Assembly (NCBI GenBank): GCA_903927605.1
Contig: CAIYNT010000233.1
Location: 1 to 16,122 of the forward strand
Reading direction: 5' to 3'
Source of the DNA: an uncultured Holophagaceae bacterium
Lineage (GTDB): Bacteria > Acidobacteriota > Holophagae > Holophagales > Holophagaceae
Length of the DNA: 16,122 bases
The translations under genes were made by a program, and so were the position numbers. Under the pieces are notes generated by a model, which was not told the origin of the DNA, did not search any database, and saw only the letters and a list, made by a program, of their open reading frames with translations. This document shows, in pieces, positions 1-13,558 of the stretch. Every line of letters starts with the position of its first letter. The stretch's first letter is position 1.

Positions 1-1
1 G

Positions 2-1903
2 GCGGCCGTGGAGGGCAAGCTGGCCACCCGCGCCGACGCCACCAAGCACCAGGGCGACTACCGCAAGATCGTCCAGGGCGTGAACGACTGTCTGGATGCC
101 GTCATTGGGCCGCTCAATGTGACAGCCGCCTACGTAGACCAGATCTCCAAGGGCGTGATCCCCCCAGTCATCACCGACAACTACAATGGCGACTTCAATA
201 TCATCAAGAACAACCTGAACAACATGGTCAAGATGATGAGCGACCTGCTCGCCCAGACCGACATCATCATCCAGGGCGCCGCCAATGGCGAACTCGACAA
301 GCGCGCCAACGCCGATATGTTCGTGGGCGGCTGGAACCAGCTGGTCAAGGGCGTCAACCAGGCCATCACCAACATCGTCGATCCCATGAACGTGACCGCC
401 GACTATGTGGACAAGGTGGCCAAGGGCATCATCCCGCCCACCATCACCACCGAATACAAGGGTCAGTACAACATCATCAAGAACAACCTGAACAACATGG
501 TCAAGATGATGAGCGACCTGCTGGCAGAGACCGACATCATCATCCAGGGCGCGATCAATGGCGAGCTCGACAAGCGCGCCAACGCCGACTTGTTTGTGGG
601 GGGCTGGAACCAGCTGGTCAAGGGCGTCAACGAAGCGATCACCAACATCATCAATCCGCTGAATGTGACCGCAAGCTATGTGGCCCGCATCGGCAAGGGT
701 GAGATCCCGCCCAAGATCACGGACAAGTACAACGGGGATTTCAACACCATCAAGGACAACATCAACTCCTGCATCGACGGGCTGCAGGGCCTGGTGGAGG
801 CCAACAACGTCATCCAGCGCATGGCCCAGAACGACTTCACCGTGCAGGTGGTGGGCCAGTACCAGGGCATCTTCGAGGAACTGGGCAAGGCCATCAACGA
901 AACCATCGGCCAGATGCGGGAGGCCCTCCTGCAGGTCCAGGAAGGCGCCCTGGCCATCGCCACGGCCTCGGGCGAAATCGCCATGGGCAACCAGGACCTC
1001 AGCAGCCGGACCGAAGAACAGGCAGCCAACCTCGAGGAGACCGCCAGCGGCCTGGAGCAGATCACCAGCAACGTGAACCTGACCGCGGACAATGCCCAGT
1101 CCGCCAACCAAGAAGCGGTCAAGGCCCGCCAGGTGGCCCAGGACGGCGGCACCGCCGTCACCCAGGTCATCGCCGCCATGGAATCCATCAACGCCTCCTC
1201 CGCCAAGATCAACGAGATCATCGGCGTGGTGGACGAGATCGCCTTCCAGACCAACCTGCTCGCGCTCAATGCAGCCGTTGAGGCCGCCCGGGCCGGGGAA
1301 CAGGGCCGCGGTTTCGCCGTGGTCGCCGCCGAGGTGCGCAACCTGGCCAAGCGCAGCGCCGACGCCGCCAAGGAGATCAAGGGACTGATCCGCGAAAGCG
1401 TGGCCAAGTCCCAGGACGGCAGCAAGGTGGCCGCCCACGCGGGGGAGACCATCCAGGAGGTGGTGGCCAATGTGCAGCGCGTTACCGCCCTCGTGGGCGA
1501 GATCGCCAACGCCACCCAGGAGCAGAGCACCGGCCTGATCGAGCTCAACAAGGCCGTGGTGCAGATGGACGAAGTCACCCAGCAGAACGCCGCCCTGGTG
1601 GAGGAGGCCGCCGCTGCCGCCGAAACCCTGGACAGCCAGGCCCATGCGCTGGCCGAAGTGGTCTCACGCTTCAAGACCGGCACGGAGGTCCGCCGCATGG
1701 AGAACAGCAGGACCACGGCCACCCCCCATGGGACAGCCCATCCGGCCGCTTCCAAGAAGACCATCACCACGCGCAAGGCCGTGGTGGCTGGGGTTACCAC
1801 CAAGGGTTCGGTCAAGGGGTCGGCCCTGCCTGAACTGGGCACCACCAAGCGGCCCGTGGCCACCCCCAAAGGTGGCGATGACGGCCAGTGGGAATCCTTC
1901 TGA
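2..1903 (+). CDS. Poly-HAMP methyl-accepting chemotaxis protein, 5'-partial
   Basis: Receptor that passes a stimulus to the CheA-CheW kinase complex. The reading frame is already open at the window edge, so the true start is upstream; residue 1 here is the GTG at base 8. Residues 4 to about 275 are HAMP-like units arranged in 91-residue repeats, then a last divergent HAMP-like unit to about 300. The signalling hairpin tip is fully canonical ([18 protein letters not shown] starting at residue 410, ending EVRNLA at 447), flanked by Glu/Gln-rich methylation helices (around 350 and 525). From about residue 556 a roughly 75-residue Pro/Thr/Lys-rich linker ends in QWESF, matching the NWETF-type CheR/CheB docking pentapeptide. 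No membrane segment is visible in this part, so location (cytoplasmic or anchored upstream) is open. It heads the che gene run, 98 bases before cheW. Confidence 0.96.
17..835 (+). repeat. Three tandem 273-bp repeats (poly-HAMP array)
   Basis: In-frame direct repeats with a 273-base (91-codon) period at about 17-289, 290-562 and 563-835. Anchor codons align without gaps: the codon starting ELDKRANA is at 290 and 563, and the first codon of IIKNN is at 200 and 473. Bases 200-249 and 473-522 are identical over 50 bases; the first half of copy 1 and the second half of copy 3 are more diverged. Each repeat encodes two HAMP-like halves, one with a [14 protein letters not shown] core and one with an NVTAxYVxxxxKGxIPPxIT core. 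Confidence 0.92.
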
Positions 1904-1965
1904 ATCCGGCCCATGAACCGCAGGAAACTCGCCTTTCCGATCCCTCCAACCGATTGATTCCTTAC

Positions 1966-1989
1966 ACCGGTCCCCTCCGGGGGATCGGT
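1966..1989 (+). promoter_or_regulatory. Hairpin just upstream of the cheW ribosome binding site
   Basis: Bases 1966-1975 (ACCGGTCCCC) pair with 1980-1989 (GGGGATCGGT) around a TCCG tetraloop, giving a 10-bp stem with one G-U pair. It lies in the 98-base gap between the receptor and cheW, and ends two bases before the GGAG ribosome binding site at 1992-1995. No T-run follows, so it does not look like an intrinsic terminator. It could be an mRNA processing or stability element or adjust cheW translation; function is inferred only. Confidence 0.5.
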
Positions 1990-2001
1990 ACGGAGAACGC
2001 C

Positions 2002-2502
2002 ATGGCCACCACTGAAGCCAGTTCGCAGGGTCTCCAGCAGGTGCTCTGCTTCGCCCTCGCGGACGAAGCCTACGCCCTGCCCATCATGAAGGTCCGGGAG
2101 ATCCAGGCCCAGGCCACCATCACCCGGATCCCCAAGGCTCCGCCCTACATGCCGGGGGTCATCAACCTCCGGGGGGCGATCGTACCCATCCTGGAGCTGC
2201 GCCATCGCTTCTCCCTTGGCGAAGCCCCCGAGGACACCCGACCCGTCATCGTCATCGTGGAGGTCCAGGGCCGCACCCTGGGCATCCGCGTGGACTCGGT
2301 GTCCGATGTGCTGGATCTGGATCCCAACGCCATCCGACCCGCCCCGGAACTGGGCACCCAGAGTGCCCTGGGTCGCGAGTTCATCGCGGGCCTGGCCAAG
2401 CTGCCGGGGTCCACCGGCGACGAAGCCATGCTGATTCTGCTCGACCTGGACCGCCTGCTTTCCGATGGTGAGCTCTCGGCCCTCGAAAACGCCACGGCCT
2501 GA
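2002..2502 (+). CDS. cheW: CheW chemotaxis coupling protein
   Basis: Cytoplasmic SH3-like adaptor that links receptors to the CheA kinase. The 166-residue length is normal for CheW. The CheW fold is visible from residue 13: LCFALADEAYALPIMKVREI, then the hallmark PGVINLRGAIVPILELR (residues 51-67) that holds the conserved NLRG arginine (Arg58), and a C-terminal ILLDLDRLL strand. I chose the ATG at 2002 because GGAG at 1992-1995 is 6 bases upstream; the frame is open further upstream, but that part overlaps the preceding receptor gene and has no CheW similarity. It is followed 4 bases later by the STAS gene. No other stand-alone CheW is present in the window, so it probably serves the receptors encoded beside it. 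Confidence 0.96.
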   Translation: MATTEASSQGLQQVLCFALADEAYALPIMKVREIQAQATITRIPKAPPYMPGVINLRGAIVPILELRHRFSLGEAPEDTRPVIVIVEVQGRTLGIRVDSVSDVLDLDPNAIRPAPELGTQSALGREFIAGLAKLPGSTGDEAMLILLDLDRLLSDGELSALENATA

Positions 2503-2506
2503 TTTC

Positions 2507-2809
2507 ATGGCACGGAAACCGGCCCCCCTCAAGCAGCCCCTCGCCTTCGAGGGCGATCTGGATGTCTTCTCCATCCATCAGCAGTGGGAGAAGGCCCTGC
2601 CCTTGCTCACCACCGGGAACAGCAGTGCGGAAGTGGACCTCTCCTCCGTCGGGGACCTGGATCTGTCCGGGCTCCAGCTGCTCTGCGCCCTGGACCGGGA
2701 CCTCCAGTCCAAGGGCATTCCGTTCACGGTGGTGGGCGCCAAGGCTGAGTGGAAGGATCGCTTCGCTTCGCTTGGGCTGAGCCGCATGTTCGACCCAGGG
2801 CAACCATGA
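2507..2809 (+). CDS. Small STAS-domain protein in the chemotaxis operon
   Basis: A 100-residue single-domain protein with a STAS fold signature: VDLSSVGDLDLSGLQLLCAL (residues 43-62) followed by KGIPFTVVG and a final amphipathic helix. STAS proteins such as SpoIIAA and MlaB act as small phospho-switch or partner-binding modules; the usual phospho-acceptor Ser/Thr before glycine corresponds to Ser54 in D-L-S-G. ATG 2507 is chosen because it lies 4 bases after the cheW stop; no strong ribosome binding site is seen, so reinitiation is likely. An in-frame ATG at 2465 would overlap cheW and add a non-STAS tail. The stop overlaps the next start (ATGA). No kinase or phosphatase partner (RsbW, SpoIIE type) is in the window, so its partner is unknown. 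Confidence 0.85.
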   Translation: MARKPAPLKQPLAFEGDLDVFSIHQQWEKALPLLTTGNSSAEVDLSSVGDLDLSGLQLLCALDRDLQSKGIPFTVVGAKAEWKDRFASLGLSRMFDPGQP

Positions 2810-3870
2810 GCCGCTGGTTCTCCGGCAGCTCCGCCACGGGGCCGGCGCTGGCCGAGGAACCTGTTGGCCAGCCTTCGGGGCTGTCGCCAATCCTGCTCCG
2901 GCTGGCCGCCCGTGAAGCCTCCATGCTGGAAGGGCAGGTGAACTTCCTGACTCCAGAGCTGCTCCAGGTGGACAGCCTGGTCCGGGAGGCGGCCGGCACC
3001 CTCGAGGACGCCCTGAAGACGCTGGATCGCAGCGTGCAGGGCCAGCACGCCCTGGTGGATGAAGTCCAGGCGGCCATGCGCCTCTCCATGGAGGGGAACG
3101 GGGGTACGGGAGGGTTCGAGACCATGAGCAGCACGATCACCGGCACCCTGGAAGGCTTTGTGAACCACATGGCGGAGGTGTCCCGCTCCACGGTGGAACT
3201 GGTGGCGCAGGTGGACGACATCCGCGAGCGCTCCCAGCGCATGGAGAACATGCTGGGGGAACTGGCCGAGATCGCCGGACGCACTCACCTGCTCTCCCTG
3301 AATGCCAGCATCGAGGCGGCCCACGCTCGGCAGTTCGGGGCGGGCTTCGCCGTGGTGGCCGGGGAGGTCTCCAAGCTGGCGGACCGCAGCACGGCCCTGA
3401 GCGCCACCATCCAGGAGCAGGTCACAGGCACGCGGCTGGCCCTGGAGCGCACGGACGCCCAGGTGCAGGCCATCGCCAGCAAGGATCTGAACAGGGCCAT
3501 GCAGTCCAAGGACGAGTCCGAGGCCCTGGTGAACTCGCTCCAGACCTGCAATCTGCACGTCAAGAACCTGGTGGGCCAGCTCGAGGACAATGCCCGGAAG
3601 ATCTCCAAGCAGGTGGGCCACGTGGTGCGCAGCCTCCAGTTCGAGGATCTCGTCCATCAAACCCTCATGGCCTGCCTGAAGGAACTGGGCAACCTGATGG
3701 AGCAGGGCGAGGCGTGGAAGGCGCTGGAGACCAGACTGACGGCCGGGGAACCGGCGGCCCCTGCCCTGGCCGACCTCGAGTCCCGGCTGGTCGAGATCGA
3801 AGCAGCCCGAGTGCAGTTCCGCGCGGTGAAGAGCAGTTCGCTCGCCGCCGGTGAAGTCGACCTTTTCTGA
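2806..3870 (+). CDS. Short cytoplasmic receptor-like (MCP signalling domain) protein
   Basis: 354 residues, almost all helical, with no transmembrane segment, HAMP or sensor domain. The MCP hairpin tip is recognisable at residues 155-192 (LLSLNASIEAA, then GAGFAVVAGEVSKLAD) but departs from consensus: FQTN is GRTH, and the Arg and Glu of the usual AARAGEQ are His173 and Gln176. After the return helix, residues 279-285 read FEDLVHQ, similar to the FQDLTGQ active motif of CheZ. The start is the ATG overlapping the STAS stop (ATGA), giving an MSRWFSG N-terminus; an earlier in-frame ATG would overlap the STAS gene. It ends 14 bases before cheY. Likely a soluble signalling protein that joins the CheA array or modulates CheY-P; the exact role is unknown. 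Confidence 0.85.
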   Translation: MSRWFSGSSATGPALAEEPVGQPSGLSPILLRLAAREASMLEGQVNFLTPELLQVDSLVREAAGTLEDALKTLDRSVQGQHALVDEVQAAMRLSMEGNGGTGGFETMSSTITGTLEGFVNHMAEVSRSTVELVAQVDDIRERSQRMENMLGELAEIAGRTHLLSLNASIEAAHARQFGAGFAVVAGEVSKLADRSTALSATIQEQVTGTRLALERTDAQVQAIASKDLNRAMQSKDESEALVNSLQTCNLHVKNLVGQLEDNARKISKQVGHVVRSLQFEDLVHQTLMACLKELGNLMEQGEAWKALETRLTAGEPAAPALADLESRLVEIEAARVQFRAVKSSSLAAGEVDLF

Positions 3871-3884
3871 CCAGGAGCTGAACG

Positions 3885-4247
3885 ATGGGCCGTCTCATCC
3901 TCACCGTCGATGACTCGAGCACGATGCGCCAGATGATCGCCTTCACCCTCAAGGGCGCCAACTTCGAGGTGGTCGAGGCGGGGGATGGTGTGGAGGCTCT
4001 CGAAGTGGCCAAGGGGAAGAAGCTTTCCCTCGTCATCACGGACGTGAACATGCCGAGGATGGACGGCATCACGCTGGTCCAGCGTCTGCGGGCCCTGCCC
4101 GAGTTCAAGTTCACGCCCATCCTGGTGCTCACCACCGAATCCGATGCGGCCATGAAGCAGAAGGGCAAGGAGGCGGGTGCCACGGGTTGGATCGTCAAGC
4201 CCTTCAGTCCCGAGAAGCTCCTGGATGTGGTGAACAAGGTCCTCTGA
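3885..4247 (+). CDS. cheY: CheY response regulator
   Basis: A 120-residue single receiver domain, the usual CheY length, with no output domain. All active-site residues are present: acidic pair Asp9-Asp10, phospho-acceptor Asp53 in ITDVNMPRMDG, Thr83 in LVLTTES and Lys105 in IVKPFSP. Phosphorylated by CheA, it would act on the flagellar motor (or another output). The start is supported by AGGAG at 3873-3877, 7 bases upstream, the best ribosome binding site in the operon, in keeping with the need for CheY in excess of the other parts. The start of cheA follows 8 bases after its stop. Confidence 0.97.
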   Translation: MGRLILTVDDSSTMRQMIAFTLKGANFEVVEAGDGVEALEVAKGKKLSLVITDVNMPRMDGITLVQRLRALPEFKFTPILVLTTESDAAMKQKGKEAGATGWIVKPFSPEKLLDVVNKVL

Positions 4248-4255
4248 GGTGCGGC

Positions 4256-6355
4256 ATGTCTGATGCGATGGCTCAATTCCGGGACGCCTTCTTCGAGGAG
4301 GCCACCGAGCTTGCGGACGGCATGGAGGCCACCCTCCTGTCCCTCGATCTGGCTGCCGTGGAGGTCGAGGATCTCCATTCCCTGTTCCGGGCCGCGCATT
4401 CCATCAAGGGCAACGCAGGTACCTTCGGTTTTCCCGCCGTGGCTTCCTTCACACACCAACTGGAGAGCACCCTGGAACCCGTCCGGCAGGGCACCCGGCC
4501 CATGACCCCCGATCTGCGGGAACTGCTGCTGCAGGGCGTGGACCTCATCCGCAGCCACCTGCACCACGCCCGGCGTGAGGAGAGCCTGCCCCTCAAGGAA
4601 CAGCAGGCCCAAACCGCGCTCATCGCCCGCCTCCAGCAGGACAGTGGAACCGCTGCGCCCCCACCGGCACCTGCCCCGTCGACCCCCGCGAAGTCCGAAT
4701 CACTGAAGGGAGCCAAGGGGTTCTCCATCCGGTTCGAGGCGCCCGTGGACGCCTTCCGCCGAGGCGTGAACCTTGAACGGCTCTTCCGGGATCTCGCCAG
4801 GCTCGGTCATCTCCATTGCTGGCCTGACCTCACCCGAATTCCCCCCGTGGACCGGATGGACCCCGAGGACTGCCACCTGGCCTGGGACATCCGGCTGGAG
4901 ACCACTCATCCCCAGATGGACGTGGCGGAGGTCTTCGAGTTCGTGGCGGACGGTGACAACCTGCGCCTCCAGCCCCTCACCCCTGAAGGGGCCGTGCCAA
5001 ACCTGGGTGAGATCCTCCAGGTGGAGGCAGACGTCAGCCCCGCGGACATCCGCGAGGCCCTGTCCCAGCAAAAACGCCTGGGCGAGCTGCTGGTGGATAT
5101 GGGCAAGGTCAAGCCCGAAGCCCTCAACAAGGCCCTCGAGCAGCAGCTGAAGAAGAAGAACCAGGCCGAGGCCTCCACGGTGCGGGTGGCCACGGAGAAG
5201 ATCGACCGCCTGGTGAACCTGGTGGGTGAGCTGGTCATCACCCAGGCCATGCTGACCCAGGCCTCCCAGCAGGCGAACACCATGCAGGGCGAGGAGATGA
5301 TGAGCGCGGCCCTGCTGCAGCTGGACCGGCAGACCCGGGAGCTGCAGGAGCGGGTCATGGGCATCCGCATGGTGCCAGTCGAAATGGTGTTCTCCCGGTT
5401 CCCGCGCATGGTCCACGAGCTGGGCAAGCAGCTGGGCAAGGATGTGGAACTGGTGATGGAAGGCCAGGCCACGGAGCTGGACAAGACCTTCATCGAGATG
5501 CTGGTGGATCCCCTGACGCATCTGGTCCGCAACGCCGTGGACCATGGCATGGAAACCAAGGAGGAGCGCCTTCAGACTGGCAAGCCGGCCATGGGCACCA
5601 TCGCCCTGCGCGCCTCCAGCCGCGGCGGCCACATCCACATCGAGGTCAAGGACGATGGCAAGGGCCTGAACCGGGACCGCATCTTGCAGAAGGCCCTGGA
5701 CCGGGGCCTCATCCCCCCGGGCAGCCGCCCTTCGGAGGAGGAACTGAATCTGCTCATCTTCGAACCTGGCTTCTCCACCGTGGAGCAGGTCTCGGACCTG
5801 TCCGGCCGCGGCGTGGGCATGGACGTGGTGCGCCAGAACGTGCGCGGCCTGGGCGGGCGCATCGAGGTGGAGAGCCTGCCTGGCCGGGGCACCCTGATCC
5901 GCCTGGTGCTGCCCCTCACCCTGGCCATCCTCGATGGGCTCACCGTCCGGGTGGGCGAGGAGACCTATGTCTTCCCCCTGGCCTCGGTGTTGGAGAGTTT
6001 CCAGCGCCAGGCTGGGGACGTGCAGACCGTCAAGGGCGACCGCGAGGTCATCAGCCTCCGGGGCGAGTTCATCCCGGTGGTGCGGCTGCAGAGCCTGCTG
6101 GCGGTGGGCACCCATATCGAGGCCACTGACCGCACCCTGCTGGTGCTGGTGGAATCCGAGGGCCGCCGGGCGGCCATGGCCGTGGACGAACTGCTCGGCC
6201 AGCAGCAGGTGGTCATCAAGAGCCTGGAGACCCACTACCGAAGGGTGGAGGGGATCTCGGGCGCCACCATCCTCGGGGATGGCCGCGTGGCTCTGATCCT
6301 CGACGTGCCAGGCCTCATGCGACTGGAGGCCAGCGCGGCCACGGTCGGCGCATGA
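4256..6355 (+). CDS. cheA: CheA histidine kinase
   Basis: A 699-residue chemotaxis kinase. In order: HPt domain with phospho-accepting His48 in AAHSIKGNAGTFG; a Pro/Ala linker; a response-regulator-binding (P2-like) domain at about 156-240 (FSIRFEAP, RLFRDLARLG, DPEDCHLAWDI); a helical LGELLVDMGKV segment at 260-298; P3 dimerisation from about 309 (VRVATEKIDRLVNLVGELVI); the ATPase with N box (HLVRNAVDHG, Asn426), G1 (DDGKG, 466-470) and G2 (GRGVGMDVV from 517); and a P5 CheW-like domain from about 554. The ATG at 4256 has GAGG 6 bases upstream and starts exactly at the HPt domain; the frame is open upstream, but that part overlaps cheY. The stop overlaps cheR (ATGA). All catalytic motifs look intact. 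Confidence 0.97.
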   Translation: MSDAMAQFRDAFFEEATELADGMEATLLSLDLAAVEVEDLHSLFRAAHSIKGNAGTFGFPAVASFTHQLESTLEPVRQGTRPMTPDLRELLLQGVDLIRSHLHHARREESLPLKEQQAQTALIARLQQDSGTAAPPPAPAPSTPAKSESLKGAKGFSIRFEAPVDAFRRGVNLERLFRDLARLGHLHCWPDLTRIPPVDRMDPEDCHLAWDIRLETTHPQMDVAEVFEFVADGDNLRLQPLTPEGAVPNLGEILQVEADVSPADIREALSQQKRLGELLVDMGKVKPEALNKALEQQLKKKNQAEASTVRVATEKIDRLVNLVGELVITQAMLTQASQQANTMQGEEMMSAALLQLDRQTRELQERVMGIRMVPVEMVFSRFPRMVHELGKQLGKDVELVMEGQATELDKTFIEMLVDPLTHLVRNAVDHGMETKEERLQTGKPAMGTIALRASSRGGHIHIEVKDDGKGLNRDRILQKALDRGLIPPGSRPSEEELNLLIFEPGFSTVEQVSDLSGRGVGMDVVRQNVRGLGGRIEVESLPGRGTLIRLVLPLTLAILDGLTVRVGEETYVFPLASVLESFQRQAGDVQTVKGDREVISLRGEFIPVVRLQSLLAVGTHIEATDRTLLVLVESEGRRAAMAVDELLGQQQVVIKSLETHYRRVEGISGATILGDGRVALILDVPGLMRLEASAATVGA

Positions 6356-7215
6356 GCCCTGCGGCACGTCCCAGCAGGGATCCCCTGCTCCTGGATCGGG
6401 AGCAGCTTTCCCCTGCCATCTTCGGCGCCCTTCGAAATCTTCTCCACAGCCATACTGGCATCGCCCTGGCACCCCACAAGCTCACCATGGTGCAGTCCCG
6501 GCTGGCCAAGCGGCTGCGCCTCCTGGGGATCGCGACCTATGAGGATTACCTCGAGCGGGTTAGCGGCCCCCAGTCCCCGGAGTGGCCGGAGTTCATCAAC
6601 GCCCTCACCACCAACCTCACCAGCTTCTTCCGCGAAGGCCACCACTTCACTCGCCTGCCGGAGCTCTTGCAGCCTGTGGCCAGGGCTTCCCGTCGCCTCC
6701 GGATCTGGAGCGCCGGCTGCTCCACCGGCGAGGAACCGTACACCCTGGCCATGACCCTCCTGAAGGCCTTCGGAGCTTCAAGGCCCATCCAGATCCTGGC
6801 CACAGACCTGGATACGGCCGTACTTGATACCGCTGCCGCCGGCACCTATCCCCTGGCCCGCATCGAGGACCTGGACCCCGAGTGGAAACGACTGGCCTTC
6901 CTCAAGGGCACCGGCACTCACCAGGGCCTGATTCGCGTCCGGCCGGAAGTGCGTCAGCTCATCACTTTCCAGCGACTGAACCTCCTGGACGAGGCCTGGC
7001 CCCTGGGGGACGAACCCTTCCAGGCCATCTTCTGCCGGAACGTGATGATCTACTTCGACAAGCCCACTCAGCGGAAGCTGCTCCAACGGTTCCACGCCAT
7101 GCTGGCGCCCGGAGGACTGCTCTTCGTCGGCCATTCCGAGGCTCTCCTGGATGGCAACCTGGGCTTCCAGTCCCTGGGCCAGACCATCTACCAGCGCAAA
7201 GCCCCGGCACCATGA
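6352..7215 (+). CDS. cheR: CheR receptor methyltransferase
   Basis: A 287-residue S-adenosylmethionine-dependent methyltransferase that methylates receptor glutamates for adaptation. The N-terminal helical domain includes TNLTSFFRE (87-95); the SAM-binding motif is WSAGCSTGEEPYT (119-131); FCRNVMIYF at 227-235 is the conserved catalytic-domain motif. The beta-subdomain has KGTGTHQGLIRVR (185-197), nearly the same as the GTGPHEGLVRVR loop of E. coli CheR, which binds the receptor C-terminal pentapeptide. This fits the QWESF tail of the receptor at the head of the operon. Start ATG overlaps the cheA stop and its own stop overlaps cheD, so translation is coupled at both ends; neither start has a clear ribosome binding site. 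Confidence 0.97.
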   Translation: MSPAARPSRDPLLLDREQLSPAIFGALRNLLHSHTGIALAPHKLTMVQSRLAKRLRLLGIATYEDYLERVSGPQSPEWPEFINALTTNLTSFFREGHHFTRLPELLQPVARASRRLRIWSAGCSTGEEPYTLAMTLLKAFGASRPIQILATDLDTAVLDTAAAGTYPLARIEDLDPEWKRLAFLKGTGTHQGLIRVRPEVRQLITFQRLNLLDEAWPLGDEPFQAIFCRNVMIYFDKPTQRKLLQRFHAMLAPGGLLFVGHSEALLDGNLGFQSLGQTIYQRKAPAP

Positions 7216-7826
7216 GCCCACCTTCCGTCCCGCTGGTCCATGGCCGCGCCTCGAAGTACCTGGACCGCCACTTCAACCGCCAGGCCATGAAGATCCTGCC
7301 GGGCGAGTTCTACGCCACAGACCAGGACGAGGTGATCGTCACGGTCCTTGGCAGCTGCGTGGCGGCCTGCCTGCTGGATCCCATCGCCATGGTGGGCGGC
7401 ATGAACCACTTCATGCTGCCGGTGAACCTGCGAGAGCGGGATCCGGACGTCTTCTACGCGGCCCGATACGGCGCGGCGGCCATGGAGTTCCTCATCAACA
7501 ATCTCCTCCACCTGGGCGCCCAGCGGGATCGCCTGGTGGCGAAGGCCTTCGGCGGCGGCCGCGTGATGGAGGGCATGTCCTCGGACGTGGGCGGCCAGAA
7601 CGTGGACTTCGTGCGCCAGTTCCTGCGGAACGAGGGCATTCCCCTCTGGAGCGAGGACATGGGCGGTCTCCATCCCCGCAAGGTCTACTTCTTCCCCCAC
7701 ACAGGACAGGTGCTGGTCAAGCGCATGGAGCGCACCAACAACAACACGGTCCTCAATCGCGAGCTGACCTATTTCCAGGAAGTCACCGGCCGGCCGATAG
7801 ATGGAGATGTGGAGCTGTTCACATGA
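7212..7826 (+). CDS. cheD: CheD receptor glutamine deamidase
   Basis: A 204-residue CheD. This family deamidates receptor glutamines to methylatable glutamates and in some bacteria also works with CheC. The catalytic cysteine and histidine are seen: Cys49 in VTVLGSCVAACLLD and His66 in GGMNHFMLP; Thr44 is the probable third residue. The conserved KAFGGGRV motif and the VYFFPHTGQVLVKR C-terminal strand are present. The N-terminal extension of about 25 residues before LPGEFYATDQDE is normal for proteobacterial-type CheDs. Start and stop overlap cheR and cheB as ATGA. No CheC is found in the window, so the CheC-stimulated CheY-P loop known in Bacillus and Thermotoga cannot be assumed here. Confidence 0.96.
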   Translation: MSPPSVPLVHGRASKYLDRHFNRQAMKILPGEFYATDQDEVIVTVLGSCVAACLLDPIAMVGGMNHFMLPVNLRERDPDVFYAARYGAAAMEFLINNLLHLGAQRDRLVAKAFGGGRVMEGMSSDVGGQNVDFVRQFLRNEGIPLWSEDMGGLHPRKVYFFPHTGQVLVKRMERTNNNTVLNRELTYFQEVTGRPIDGDVELFT

Positions 7827-8881
7827 ACCCTGAGCGCAAACGGCGGGTCCTGATCGTGGATGACAGCCCCCTGGTCCGCCAGGTGCTGAAGACCATCCTG
7901 TCGGGCCATCCCCAGCTGGAAGTCGTCGGCACGGCCATGGACCCCTATGAGGCCCGGGAGCGCATCAAGGAGCTGGATCCCGACGTGCTCACCCTGGATG
8001 TGGAGATGCCCCGCATGGACGGCCTCACCTTCCTCGGCAAACTGATGAAGGCCCATCCTATGCCCGCCGTGATGCTGTCAAGCCTCACGGCCCAAGGCAC
8101 CACCACGGCCCTGGATGCCCTGGCCCTGGGGGCGGTGGACGTGATCGGCAAGCCCGCCATGAACCAGGCCGCGGGTCTGGAGGCCATGGGTGCGGAGATC
8201 GCCGAGACGGTCTACGCCGCCTCCCTGGCCCGCGTGAGCGGTCCCCGCGCGCCTTCGCCATCTGCGCATGGGGGCCTGGCGCCCCTGGCCTCCCGGGCGA
8301 AGGCAGGCCGCACCCTCATCGCCATCGGCTCCAGCACCGGCGGTACCGAGGCATTGCGTCAGGTCTTCGAGGCCATCCCCGAGAATCTGCCACCCATCGC
8401 CGTAGTCCAGCACATGCTGCCCGGTTTCACCGCAGCCTTCGCCGAGCGCCTGGACCGCACCTGCCGGGCCCGGGTGAAGATCGCCGAGGATGGGGAGCCT
8501 CTGAAGCCGGGCACCGTATACCTGGCTCCCAGCGAAGCCCACCTCACCATAGCGCGCCACAGCCCGGGCCTGGTGGCTCTGCTTCAACCCGGGGAGCGGG
8601 TGTCCCGCCATCTGCCTTCCGTGGACGTGCTGTTCCAGTCCGTCGCCGAGGTCTGCGGCCCCCATGCCCTGGGTGTCATCCTCACGGGCATGGGCGACGA
8701 CGGCGCCCGCGGTCTCCTGCTGATGCGCCAGAAGGGCGCCCGCACCCTGGGCCAGGATGAGGCCACCTGCGTGGTCTACGGCATGCCCCGCGCCGCCTTC
8801 ATGCGTGGCGCCGTCGAAGAGCAGGCCCCCCTTCAGGCCATCGCCAACCATCTGGTCCTGTGGTGTGGACGGGAGGCCTGA
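7823..8881 (+). CDS. cheB: CheB receptor methylesterase/deamidase
   Basis: A 352-residue two-domain response regulator that removes receptor methyl groups when phosphorylated by CheA. The N-terminal receiver carries Asp12-Asp13 and phospho-acceptor Asp59 in LTLDVEMPRMDG. After a short Pro/Ala/Ser linker (about 138-162) the esterase domain holds the catalytic triad: Ser171 in IGSSTGGTEAL, His197 in VVQHMLPGF and Asp293 in TGMGDDG. The C-terminal VVYGMPRAA motif is conserved. The ATG overlaps the cheD stop. This is the last gene of the operon; its stop lies 23 bases from the stop of the convergent MCE gene, and no terminator is visible between them. Confidence 0.97.
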   Translation: MNPERKRRVLIVDDSPLVRQVLKTILSGHPQLEVVGTAMDPYEARERIKELDPDVLTLDVEMPRMDGLTFLGKLMKAHPMPAVMLSSLTAQGTTTALDALALGAVDVIGKPAMNQAAGLEAMGAEIAETVYAASLARVSGPRAPSPSAHGGLAPLASRAKAGRTLIAIGSSTGGTEALRQVFEAIPENLPPIAVVQHMLPGFTAAFAERLDRTCRARVKIAEDGEPLKPGTVYLAPSEAHLTIARHSPGLVALLQPGERVSRHLPSVDVLFQSVAEVCGPHALGVILTGMGDDGARGLLLMRQKGARTLGQDEATCVVYGMPRAAFMRGAVEEQAPLQAIANHLVLWCGREA

Positions 8882-12051: not shown

Positions 12052-13005
12052 TTAGACCGCTGGTCCATCAATCTCCGCAAACAAGGGGTGCGTGAGGTAG
12101 CGCTCGCCGGTATCGCAAAGCACGGCCACCACCGTCTTGCCTTCCCCCAGTTCCTTCGCGACTTCCAGCGCTGCGAAGACGATGGCGCCGGTGCTGATGC
12201 CCGTGAGCAGGCCCTCCTCGCGGGCCAGACGGCGGGCGATGGCGATGGCATCGTCGTAGCCCACGGTGCGGATGCGCTGGAAGGCCTGACGATTCAGGAT
12301 GCCCGGCACGAAGTTCGGCCCGAGCCCCTGGAGCTTGTGGGGGCCAGCCTGCCCCGTGCTGAGCAGCGGCGAAGTATCCGGCTCCACGGCCACCACCAGG
12401 GTGCCGGGCTTCTTCTGGGCCAGCACCTCGCCCACACCGGTGATGGTGCCGCCCGTACCCACGCCCGCCACAAAGGCATCCAGCTCCGGCACCTGCTCCA
12501 GGATCTCCAGGGCCGTGGTGCGGCGATGCACGGCGGGGTTGGCCGGGTTCTCGAACTGGCGCACCAGGAAGTAGGAAGGATCGGCGTCCGCCAGCTCCTG
12601 CGCCTTGTCCACGGCGGCCTTCATGCCGCCGGAGCCGGGGGTCAGCACCAGCTCCGCACCATAGGCCTTCAGCAGGGCGCGGCGTTCCTGGGTCATGGTG
12701 TCCGGCATCACCAGCGTGATCCGGTAGCCCTTGGCCGCCGCCACAAAAGCGAGGCCGATGCCCGTGTTGCCGCTGGTGGCCTCCAGCAGGGTCATGCCGG
12801 CCTTCAGGGTGCCCCGGGCCTCCGCATCCTGGATCATGCTCAGCGCGATGCGATCCTTCACGCTGCCGCCGGGATTGGCGCTTTCGAGCTTCACGTAGAC
12901 CTTCGCGGAGCCCTTCGGCACCAGGCGGTTCAATCGCACGACGGGCGTGTAGCCCACGAGCTCATAGGCATGTTCGACGCGGTTGGGACGGGTGATGCTG
13001 CTCAT
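12052..13005 (-). CDS. cysK: Cysteine synthase (O-acetylserine sulfhydrylase)
   Basis: A 317-residue cytoplasmic PLP enzyme that makes cysteine from O-acetylserine and sulfide. Visible motifs: the PLP lysine Lys50 in NPGGSVKDR, the substrate loop TSGNTG (77-82), MTQERRALLKAYGAELVLTPG, the PLP phosphate loop GTGGT (183-187) and GISTGAIV near the C-terminus. Length and motifs are those of the CysK/CysM type; lack of any fused CBS or regulatory domain argues against cystathionine beta-synthase forms. ATG 13005 has an AAGGGGG ribosome binding site whose first bases fall in a 15-bp inverted repeat. It is divergent from an Rrf2-type regulator gene, 124 bases away, which suggests local control by cysteine or its precursor. 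Confidence 0.96.
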   Translation of the reverse strand: MSSITRPNRVEHAYELVGYTPVVRLNRLVPKGSAKVYVKLESANPGGSVKDRIALSMIQDAEARGTLKAGMTLLEATSGNTGIGLAFVAAAKGYRITLVMPDTMTQERRALLKAYGAELVLTPGSGGMKAAVDKAQELADADPSYFLVRQFENPANPAVHRRTTALEILEQVPELDAFVAGVGTGGTITGVGEVLAQKKPGTLVVAVEPDTSPLLSTGQAGPHKLQGLGPNFVPGILNRQAFQRIRTVGYDDAIAIARRLAREEGLLTGISTGAIVFAALEVAKELGEGKTVVAVLCDTGERYLTHPLFAEIDGPAV

Positions 13006-13013
13006 GGGGCCCC

Positions 13014-13046
13014 CTTCAGGCTTCGGGCTCCGCCCGAAGCCTGAAG
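13014..13046. repeat. Perfect 15-bp inverted repeat in the cysK leader/promoter
   Basis: Bases 13014-13028 (CTTCAGGCTTCGGGC) and 13032-13046 are exact reverse complements around a TCC loop. It begins 8 bases upstream of the cysK ATG and reaches into the predicted -10 box. As DNA it could be an operator; as RNA it would hold part of the cysK ribosome binding site. No gene ends here, so a terminator role is unlikely. Confidence 0.8.
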
Positions 13047-13072
13047 TATGGGAAGGAGAAATAAATTGTCAA
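13045..13072 (-). promoter_or_regulatory. Predicted sigma-70-type promoter of cysK
   Basis: On the minus strand, a perfect TTGACA -35 box (13072-13067), a 16-base spacer and a CATACT -10 box (13050-13045, 4 of 6 matches). The predicted transcript start is near 13038, inside the inverted repeat. A second TTGACT copy lies 9 bases upstream (13081-13076). Confidence 0.6.
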
Positions 13073-13084
13073 GTTAGTCAATTT
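13063..13084. promoter_or_regulatory. Candidate Rrf2-type operator dyad
   Basis: A 22-base dyad AAATTG-N10-CAATTT with two further symmetric inner pairs, covering the cysK -35 box, within an AT-rich island of the otherwise GC-rich window. Position between divergent cysK and the regulator gene suits a site that controls both. Assignment to the neighbouring Rrf2 protein is inference. Confidence 0.45.
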
Positions 13085-13129: not shown

Positions 13130-13558
13130 ATGAAGAATTCTGCCAAGGGACGTTATGGATTGCAGATGATGGTGGACCTAGCCCTCCAGTCCGGTCGCGG
13201 CCCCGCCCTGGTGGAGGCCATTGCTCAACGCCAGCAGCTTCCGCCCAAGTTTCTCCGGGTGCTGCTGGGCCCCCTCAAGACCGCCGGTCTCCTCCAGGTC
13301 CAGCGCGGTCCCAGCGGCGGCTGCCTGCTGGCCCGCCATCCCAGCCATATCAGCGCCCTGGAGGTGCTGGAGGCCCTGGAAGGTCGCCTGGGCAGCGACA
13401 GCCTGCCCTCCAACGCCACCCCCGGCGCCCGGGCTGTCCGCGAGCTGTGGACCCGCAGCACCGAGACCGCCCGCGACGTCCTCCGCGGCACCACGCTGGC
13501 CGACCTCGCTGCGCGGCAGCAGGCCCTAGAGGTGAACAGCCAGGGGTACTCGATCTGA
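13130..13558 (+). CDS. Rrf2-family transcriptional regulator, CymR-like
   Basis: A 142-residue winged-helix DNA-binding regulator. The Rrf2 pattern is clear: AKGRYGLQMMVDLAL at the start, helix-turn-helix with PPKFLRVLLGPLKTAGLL (38-55), the wing RGPSGGCLLAR (59-69) and dimer helix ISALEVLEALEG. It has a single cysteine (Cys65, in the wing, where GGY is usual) and so lacks the three-Cys cluster site of IscR; NsrR-type clustering is equally excluded. The last four residues are GYSI, like the CysK-docking tails of CysE and CdiA toxins. GGAGG at 13118-13122 is 7 bases before ATG. Being divergent from cysK, it is most likely a cysteine-metabolism repressor like CymR of Bacillus, which acts in complex with CysK; this is inference. 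Confidence 0.9.
   Translation: MKNSAKGRYGLQMMVDLALQSGRGPALVEAIAQRQQLPPKFLRVLLGPLKTAGLLQVQRGPSGGCLLARHPSHISALEVLEALEGRLGSDSLPSNATPGARAVRELWTRSTETARDVLRGTTLADLAARQQALEVNSQGYSI

Follow-up and report, generated by a model that had tools for sequence, protein, structure and literature searches.

Genes and features at the locus

The DNA analyzed here (the window) is a stretch of 16,122 nucleotides from an uncultured Holophagaceae bacterium, in which cysK and a gene for an Rrf2-family regulator are divergently arranged (Table 1). This arrangement, the GYSI end of the regulator and the lack of IscR cluster cysteines had been described in a sequence-only reading of the same DNA, and all three observations held. 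CysK passed the NCBI cutoff, the regulator frame ends in ...VNSQGYSI, and its sole cysteine, C65, lies outside the IscR cluster loop, so that the three cluster cysteines are missing. An IscR-type identity was rejected because these cysteines are absent, and the score against the IscR model was 60.6 bits, below the cutoff of 207.55. The regulator matched the Rrf2 superfamily model PF02082 with 103.8 bits (gathering cutoff, 30), which places it in that superfamily. Against NF047409, the NCBIfam equivalog model for CymR, it scored 98.4 bits, below the cutoff of 195, and none of 297 genomes of the phylum gave a match above that cutoff. The deduced CysK carries the motifs TSGNTG at 77, RQFENP at 149 and GPHKLQGLG at 221 and, judged by motif, retains the peptide-contact residues named in the part of PMC12895370 available to us.

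Table 1. Coordinates of genes and predicted elements in the window
Feature	Position	Strand	Basis
cysK, cysteine synthase A (O-acetylserine sulfhydrylase)	12052..13005	-	TIGR01139 427.5 bits, cutoff 351
Predicted cysK promoter, TTGACA-16-CATACT	13045..13072	-	10/12 matches; shuffles mean 0.3
Candidate palindromic operator, AATTGTCAAGTTAGTCAATT	13064..13083		One mismatch to consensus AATTNNCAANNTTGNNAATT
Rrf2-family regulator, CymR-like, C-terminal GYSI	13130..13558	+	142-aa ORF; Rrf2 profile match; AlphaFold2 model
Codons for the C-terminal G-Y-S-I tag of the regulator	13544..13555	+	Residues invariant in 33/33 loci

Among the best 120 of 336 homologues of the regulator, the closest named proteins were from Geothrix and Holophagaceae; thus, the window was assigned to the Geothrix group. 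Some homologues already carry automatic annotations of this kind, such as "HTH-type transcriptional regulator CymR" for a Geothrix oryzae protein and "Rrf2 family cysteine metabolism transcriptional repressor" for others. A search of viral contigs recovered no relatives. Elsewhere in the window, positions 1 to 8881 hold a chemotaxis-like cluster with receptor, CheW-, CheA-, CheR-, CheD- and CheB-like genes, as judged by eye.

Candidate operator and predicted promoter between the two genes

The -35 box of the predicted cysK promoter lies inside the candidate palindromic operator. In 36 aligned upstream regions, the palindrome occurred with at most one mismatch in 30 and with two mismatches in 2, and it was absent from 4 (L031, L032, L033 and L035), all of which keep the tail. 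At the genome level, 26 sites with at most one mismatch were found in 23 of the 26 genomes of the group and none in the other three. By position, 23 of these 26 sites are the cysK-regulator site, and a reversed control pattern matched one genome. An 18-base one-sided pattern, allowing up to three mismatches, matched 24 of the 26 genomes. The palindrome is almost unique per genome, the three extra sites being in G253, G302 and G304. The extra site in G253 (L322, G253:C36:176000-180000, operator 1993-2012) is located about 55 bases before genes for uroporphyrinogen methyltransferase, siroheme synthase and sulfite reductase. This position suggests that the regulon is sometimes wider, and in G253 sulfite reduction may also be under the control of the regulator. 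In G305 (L095), two ORFs were tested beside a secondary palindrome-like site, and neither gave an NCBIfam match. The regulator side of the gap between the two genes yielded no consensus promoter.

Between the predicted cysK -10 box and the start codon lies a perfect inverted repeat (13014-13046; 15-base arms, 3-base loop). Folding in relatives gave a strong repeat in some of them, whereas in others it was weak or missing; Rfam gave no match in the window. Because folding is patchy and one arm runs into the predicted -10 box, an RNA element is not claimed here.

Conservation of the tail in the Geothrix group

With the whole protein, tail included, as the query, the terminal isoleucine was present in all of the best 120 of 336 homologues, the query among them (119 GYSI and 1 EYSI). 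The loci L001 to L036 were retrieved with a Geothrix query, and in 33 of them (L001-L033) the last four residues were invariant, while their codons varied (four for Gly and two each for Tyr, Ser and Ile). In the same 33 loci, the comparison positions -5 and -15 held three and six different residues, respectively. Fixed residues with synonymously varying codons indicate that the tail is under selection, and a chance origin of the terminal isoleucine was rejected by its conservation.

At an E value of 1e-15, the regulator was matched at 47 places in 42 of the 61 genomes of its order. Forty-five of these places were read and all 45 end in an aromatic residue, any residue and isoleucine (aromatic-x-Ile, the tag), in the forms GYSI, GYAI, AWMI, AYVI, LYVI, GFAI, DFSI, NYSI and NYAI; the remaining two are fragments. 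By the Pfam model, the Geothrix fermentans genome carries eight Rrf2 genes; a terminal isoleucine is encoded by just one of them, that beside cysK.

Tail and gene neighborhood in Acidobacteriota

Scanned with the CymR model, the 297 genomes of the phylum gave at least 150 places, 30 of which came with loci. Of the 120 others, 92 were read and 28 were left out, near-copies and stretches already read among them. Together with other loci, these gave 153 unique Rrf2 frames, 152 of them with a stop codon. Among the 152 proteins, 45 of 47 encoded beside a cysteine-synthase-like gene (one whose product is similar to the window CysK) ended in aromatic-x-Ile, compared with 11 of 105 others. The two untagged neighbors are L189 (RYGV), from the lineage of the tagged L175, and L070 (ATA). 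In L070, an untagged Rrf2 gene adjoins cysteine-synthase-like and Mec-like genes, which counts against the explanation that we favor. Three of the 11 tagged proteins without such a neighbor are encoded at the ends of Geothrix contigs, and three more are sulfur linked, being encoded beside MetX-MetW (L157), O-acetylhomoserine sulfhydrylase (L182), or CysH, CysD and sulfite reductase (L148). No sulfur gene was detected near the tagged L188, L196, L201, L202 and L203, which form four clusters, L188 and L196 falling together.

The comparison was also made between clusters at 75% identity. A sulfur gene was nearby in 15 of 19 tagged versus 4 of 58 untagged clusters (p 3e-9), a count that is partly circular because the CysM, Mec, CysO, MetXW, MetY, CysH, CysD and CysI references came from tagged loci; CysE neighbors in it were detected through two cyanobacterial CysE sequences. 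With cysteine-synthase-like neighbors alone, for which the window CysK is the sole reference needed, the counts were 12 of 19 versus 2 of 58 (p 1e-7), and after removal of the window clade they were 6 of 13 versus 2 of 58 (p 3e-4). The sequence-only reading had asked whether the terminal isoleucine is conserved only in the cysK-linked group. Its retention beside cysK and its absence from the seven other G. fermentans paralogues agree with that idea, but isoleucine tails are also seen away from cysK. A tail unique to cysK neighbors was rejected, since it is present also beside MetXW, MetY and CysHDI. Because tags occur beside these other sulfur genes and, in cyanobacteria, near cysK, the C-terminal tail is, as judged from gene neighborhoods, a mark of sulfur-linked Rrf2 regulators, cysK neighbors and others alike.

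The regulator could instead repress cysK alone, sensing cysteine or redox state via C65, with the tail having another role or being an ancestral remnant. C65 (codon at 13322-13324, motif GGC) is invariant among 22 aligned homologues and is a possible redox switch, and a redox-sensitive cysteine is reported for Staphylococcus aureus CymR in the available part of PMC13256707. However, cysteine is absent from P0122, a protein with 99% identity to the B. subtilis chain. A remnant, moreover, would not stay invariant amid synonymous turnover while the paralogues are without it, nor would it follow sulfur genes across lineages. We therefore consider this explanation unlikely.

The AlphaFold2 model of the regulator has a mean pLDDT of 89.3. 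An isoleucine tail that is simply the conserved end of a C-terminal helix for Rrf2 dimerization, unrelated to CysK, would fit its position straight after the last helix (123-139). However, the last residues lie outside this helix and are modeled with low confidence (pLDDT of 46 in the last block), the other Rrf2 paralogues are tailless, and the last residues track gene neighborhood. These points leave a role in dimerization with a very slim chance of being the explanation.

Several tagged loci showed further features. A row of genes for Rrf2, a cysteine-synthase-like protein, a protease-like protein and a small MoaD/SAMP-like carrier is repeated in L175, L183 and L192. In L175, on which NCBIfam was run, the nearest model of the protease-like gene was "desampylase"; we take the protease-like and small carrier genes of this row to be Mec and CysO. 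Partial versions of the row consist of Rrf2 and synthase in L210 and L206, with a partial synthase in L189. In L313, Rrf2 (NYSI), CysK and CysE (DWVI) occur together. By eye, at least three cysteines were seen in the IscR cluster region of the tagged Rrf2 proteins of L052, L157, L182, L188, L196, L308, L310, L312, L314, L315, L316 and L317. Tagged members with an IscR-like cysteine triad occur in G098, G312, G315, G319, G320, G328 and G330 and in L157, L182 and L188. This distribution of cysteines suggests that one protein can have both cluster and tail, and that the cysteines were lost in the Geothrix group.

Tagged regulators in other phyla

In Bacillota, a search whose query stopped short of the tail gave 7479 CymR-type matches, and among the 120 listed, 118 end in MFYI, 1 ends in MYYI and 1 is a truncated record labeled partial. 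Thus, 119 of 120 listed CymR-type proteins end in isoleucine, and the aromatic-x-Ile end of CymR is found in the regulator as GYSI. A profile built from acidobacterial and cyanobacterial members, with the tail left in, gave 5185 matches; all 120 listed, which are of the cyanobacterial type, end in MYYI, and the named organisms among them are all cyanobacterial. Tagged cyanobacterial Rrf2 genes were also found near cysK. Among plasmids, 228 records contained a match, and 9 of 15 regions picked by the author and read were tagged, among them that of Synechococcus elongatus pANL (MFYI). The six untagged regions are from Streptomyces, Pusillibacter, Variovorax, Vescimonas, Lysinibacillus and Shinella. 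The untagged Shinella gene lies near sulfate transport genes and is, by context, a counterexample. On pANL, the tagged Rrf2 gene is near that of the SrpI encapsulin; the word Rrf2 is absent from the eLife encapsulin paper (PMC8049743).

On a tree of 92 rows, built with the tail columns left out, the tag requires eight changes, and none of 500 shuffles was as low. At least three of the tag changes are forced by supported branches. A single clade of all tagged Rrf2 proteins was rejected (p 3.8e-7). A single clade without Methylosinus and with L189 and Streptomyces was not rejected (p 0.107), this group having been chosen after inspection of the tree. The window group and the Bacillus/Listeria CymR proteins showed no supported join, and a single clade of the two was not rejected (p-AU 0.405). 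The tag may mark an ancient class, with repeated losses and one independent gain, or it may have arisen by convergence.

CysE tails

The terminal isoleucine is the anchor of CysE in the CysK active site, according to the available parts of PMC12895370 and PMC9547175. We read 52 CysE ends, found with one model and one Geothrix CysE, a search by which other CysE types could be missed. The main CysE of Geothrix-type genomes ends in GMP or GMPx, and none of 32 has a terminal isoleucine. In the five sister-lineage genomes, whose regulators end in AWMI, AYVI or LYVI, all five CysE proteins end in isoleucine (WMI or WSI). Lower-scoring CysE proteins without isoleucine were found in G151, G335, G325 and G327; those of G325 and G327 are near the sister lineage by score and still lack it, which counts against our favored explanation. 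Some genomes have a second, divergent CysE, ending in WMI or WVI in 10 of 11 cases. Among the genomes of the order matched by the regulator, 35 encode one that ends in GYSI or GYAI. In 23 of these 35, every CysE found is without isoleucine, and in 8 a second, isoleucine-ending CysE is present as well; G304 has a fragment of the isoleucine-type second CysE (L280), and G302, G310 and G323 are outside the count. The regulator thus carries the sole docking tail detected in 23 of the 35 genomes, although further CysE proteins may be hidden by the draft state of the assemblies and by the limit of the search.

Another explanation is that the tail docks in CysK chiefly to inhibit or stabilize the enzyme, as CysE does, with a secondary effect on transcription. 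The main Geothrix CysE being tailless, the regulator is left as a candidate CysK partner, and in G098 the two tails are alike, CysE ending in AWSI and the regulator in AWMI. However, the palindrome sits on the cysK promoter. A repressor is also normally far scarcer than CysK, which counts against a primary action on the enzyme. We regard this explanation as quite improbable.

Proposed mechanism

The regulator has a conserved tail, is associated with sulfur genes, has a palindrome over the cysK -35 box at its locus and shares the CymR fold. It is probably a repressor of the Rrf2 family, similar to CymR, for which CysK serves as the O-acetylserine sensor. Points against this reading include the low score with the CymR model, the lack of a supported join to Bacillus CymR in the tree, the five tagged proteins with no sulfur gene detected nearby, the upstream regions and genomes in which the palindrome is missing, and the regulator side of the gap with no consensus promoter. 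In the CymR system, O-acetylserine dissolves the CymR-CysK complex. For the regulator, we infer that it binds CysK, that O-acetylserine releases it, that its control is negative, and that it also acts on its own gene. With ample cysteine and little O-acetylserine, the Tyr-Ser-Ile tail would enter the unoccupied active site of CysK. Bound to CysK, the regulator would then occupy the palindrome and block cysK, and it would probably block its own gene as well. When cysteine drops, O-acetylserine would accumulate, fill the CysK active site, eject the tail and lift the repression. Because the main CysE lacks a tail, the regulator would take the place of CysE as the docking partner of CysK in Geothrix-type genomes, some of which have a tailed second CysE. 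If this is true, many Geothrix-type bacteria lost the CysE-CysK complex and retained its docking site for a repressor.

More tentatively, we suggest that a C-terminal aromatic-x-isoleucine tag might define a cross-phylum Rrf2 class (Bacillota, Acidobacteriota, Cyanobacteriota and perhaps Pseudomonadota) that reads O-acetylserine through cysteine synthase. Within such a class, control would have moved from the enzyme to the gene in Geothrix, since the main CysE lost the tag and the repressor kept it. Some members, which also retain the IscR-like cysteine triad, could respond jointly to Fe-S status and O-acetylserine. Known from Firmicutes, the CymR-CysK device may be an old and portable sensor of cysteine supply, and its three-residue signature is easy to search and test, including in the model cyanobacterium S. 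elongatus.

Comparison with known systems

Our paper search, in the parts of the sources available, found no description of this regulator in Geothrix or other Acidobacteriota, nor of a tail-defined Rrf2 class. The closest known system is CymR of Bacillus subtilis, Listeria and Staphylococcus, which, like the regulator, is an Rrf2 protein without cluster cysteines, with the same fold, an aromatic-x-Ile end and a link to cysteine synthesis. CymR had been named as a precedent in the sequence-only reading; it has the same kind of tail, and B. subtilis CymR (2y75, 40% identity) is the nearest solved structure by both sequence and fold. In B. subtilis, a CymR-CysK complex acts on DNA, with CysK stabilizing CymR (PMC4961446, citing Tanous 2008, as far as the available part shows). 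By the title of structure 2y75, CymR is a global cysteine regulator; in Geothrix, by contrast, the regulator gene and cysK are divergent and a genome holds roughly one palindrome. The regulator scores under the NCBI CymR cutoff. The IscR/NsrR type of Rrf2 protein has the fold in common with the Geothrix regulator, which lacks the cluster cysteines. In CdiA-CT of Escherichia coli 536, a C-terminal GYGI is inserted into CysK (PMC12895370, available part); the likeness is confined to the last residues, and the outcome there is toxin activation, not gene regulation. The cysteine synthase complex likewise depends on a CysK-anchoring terminal isoleucine, as in the WMI or WSI ends of CysE in the five sister-lineage genomes, whereas in the Geothrix group a DNA-binding protein bears the tail and the main CysE does not end in isoleucine.
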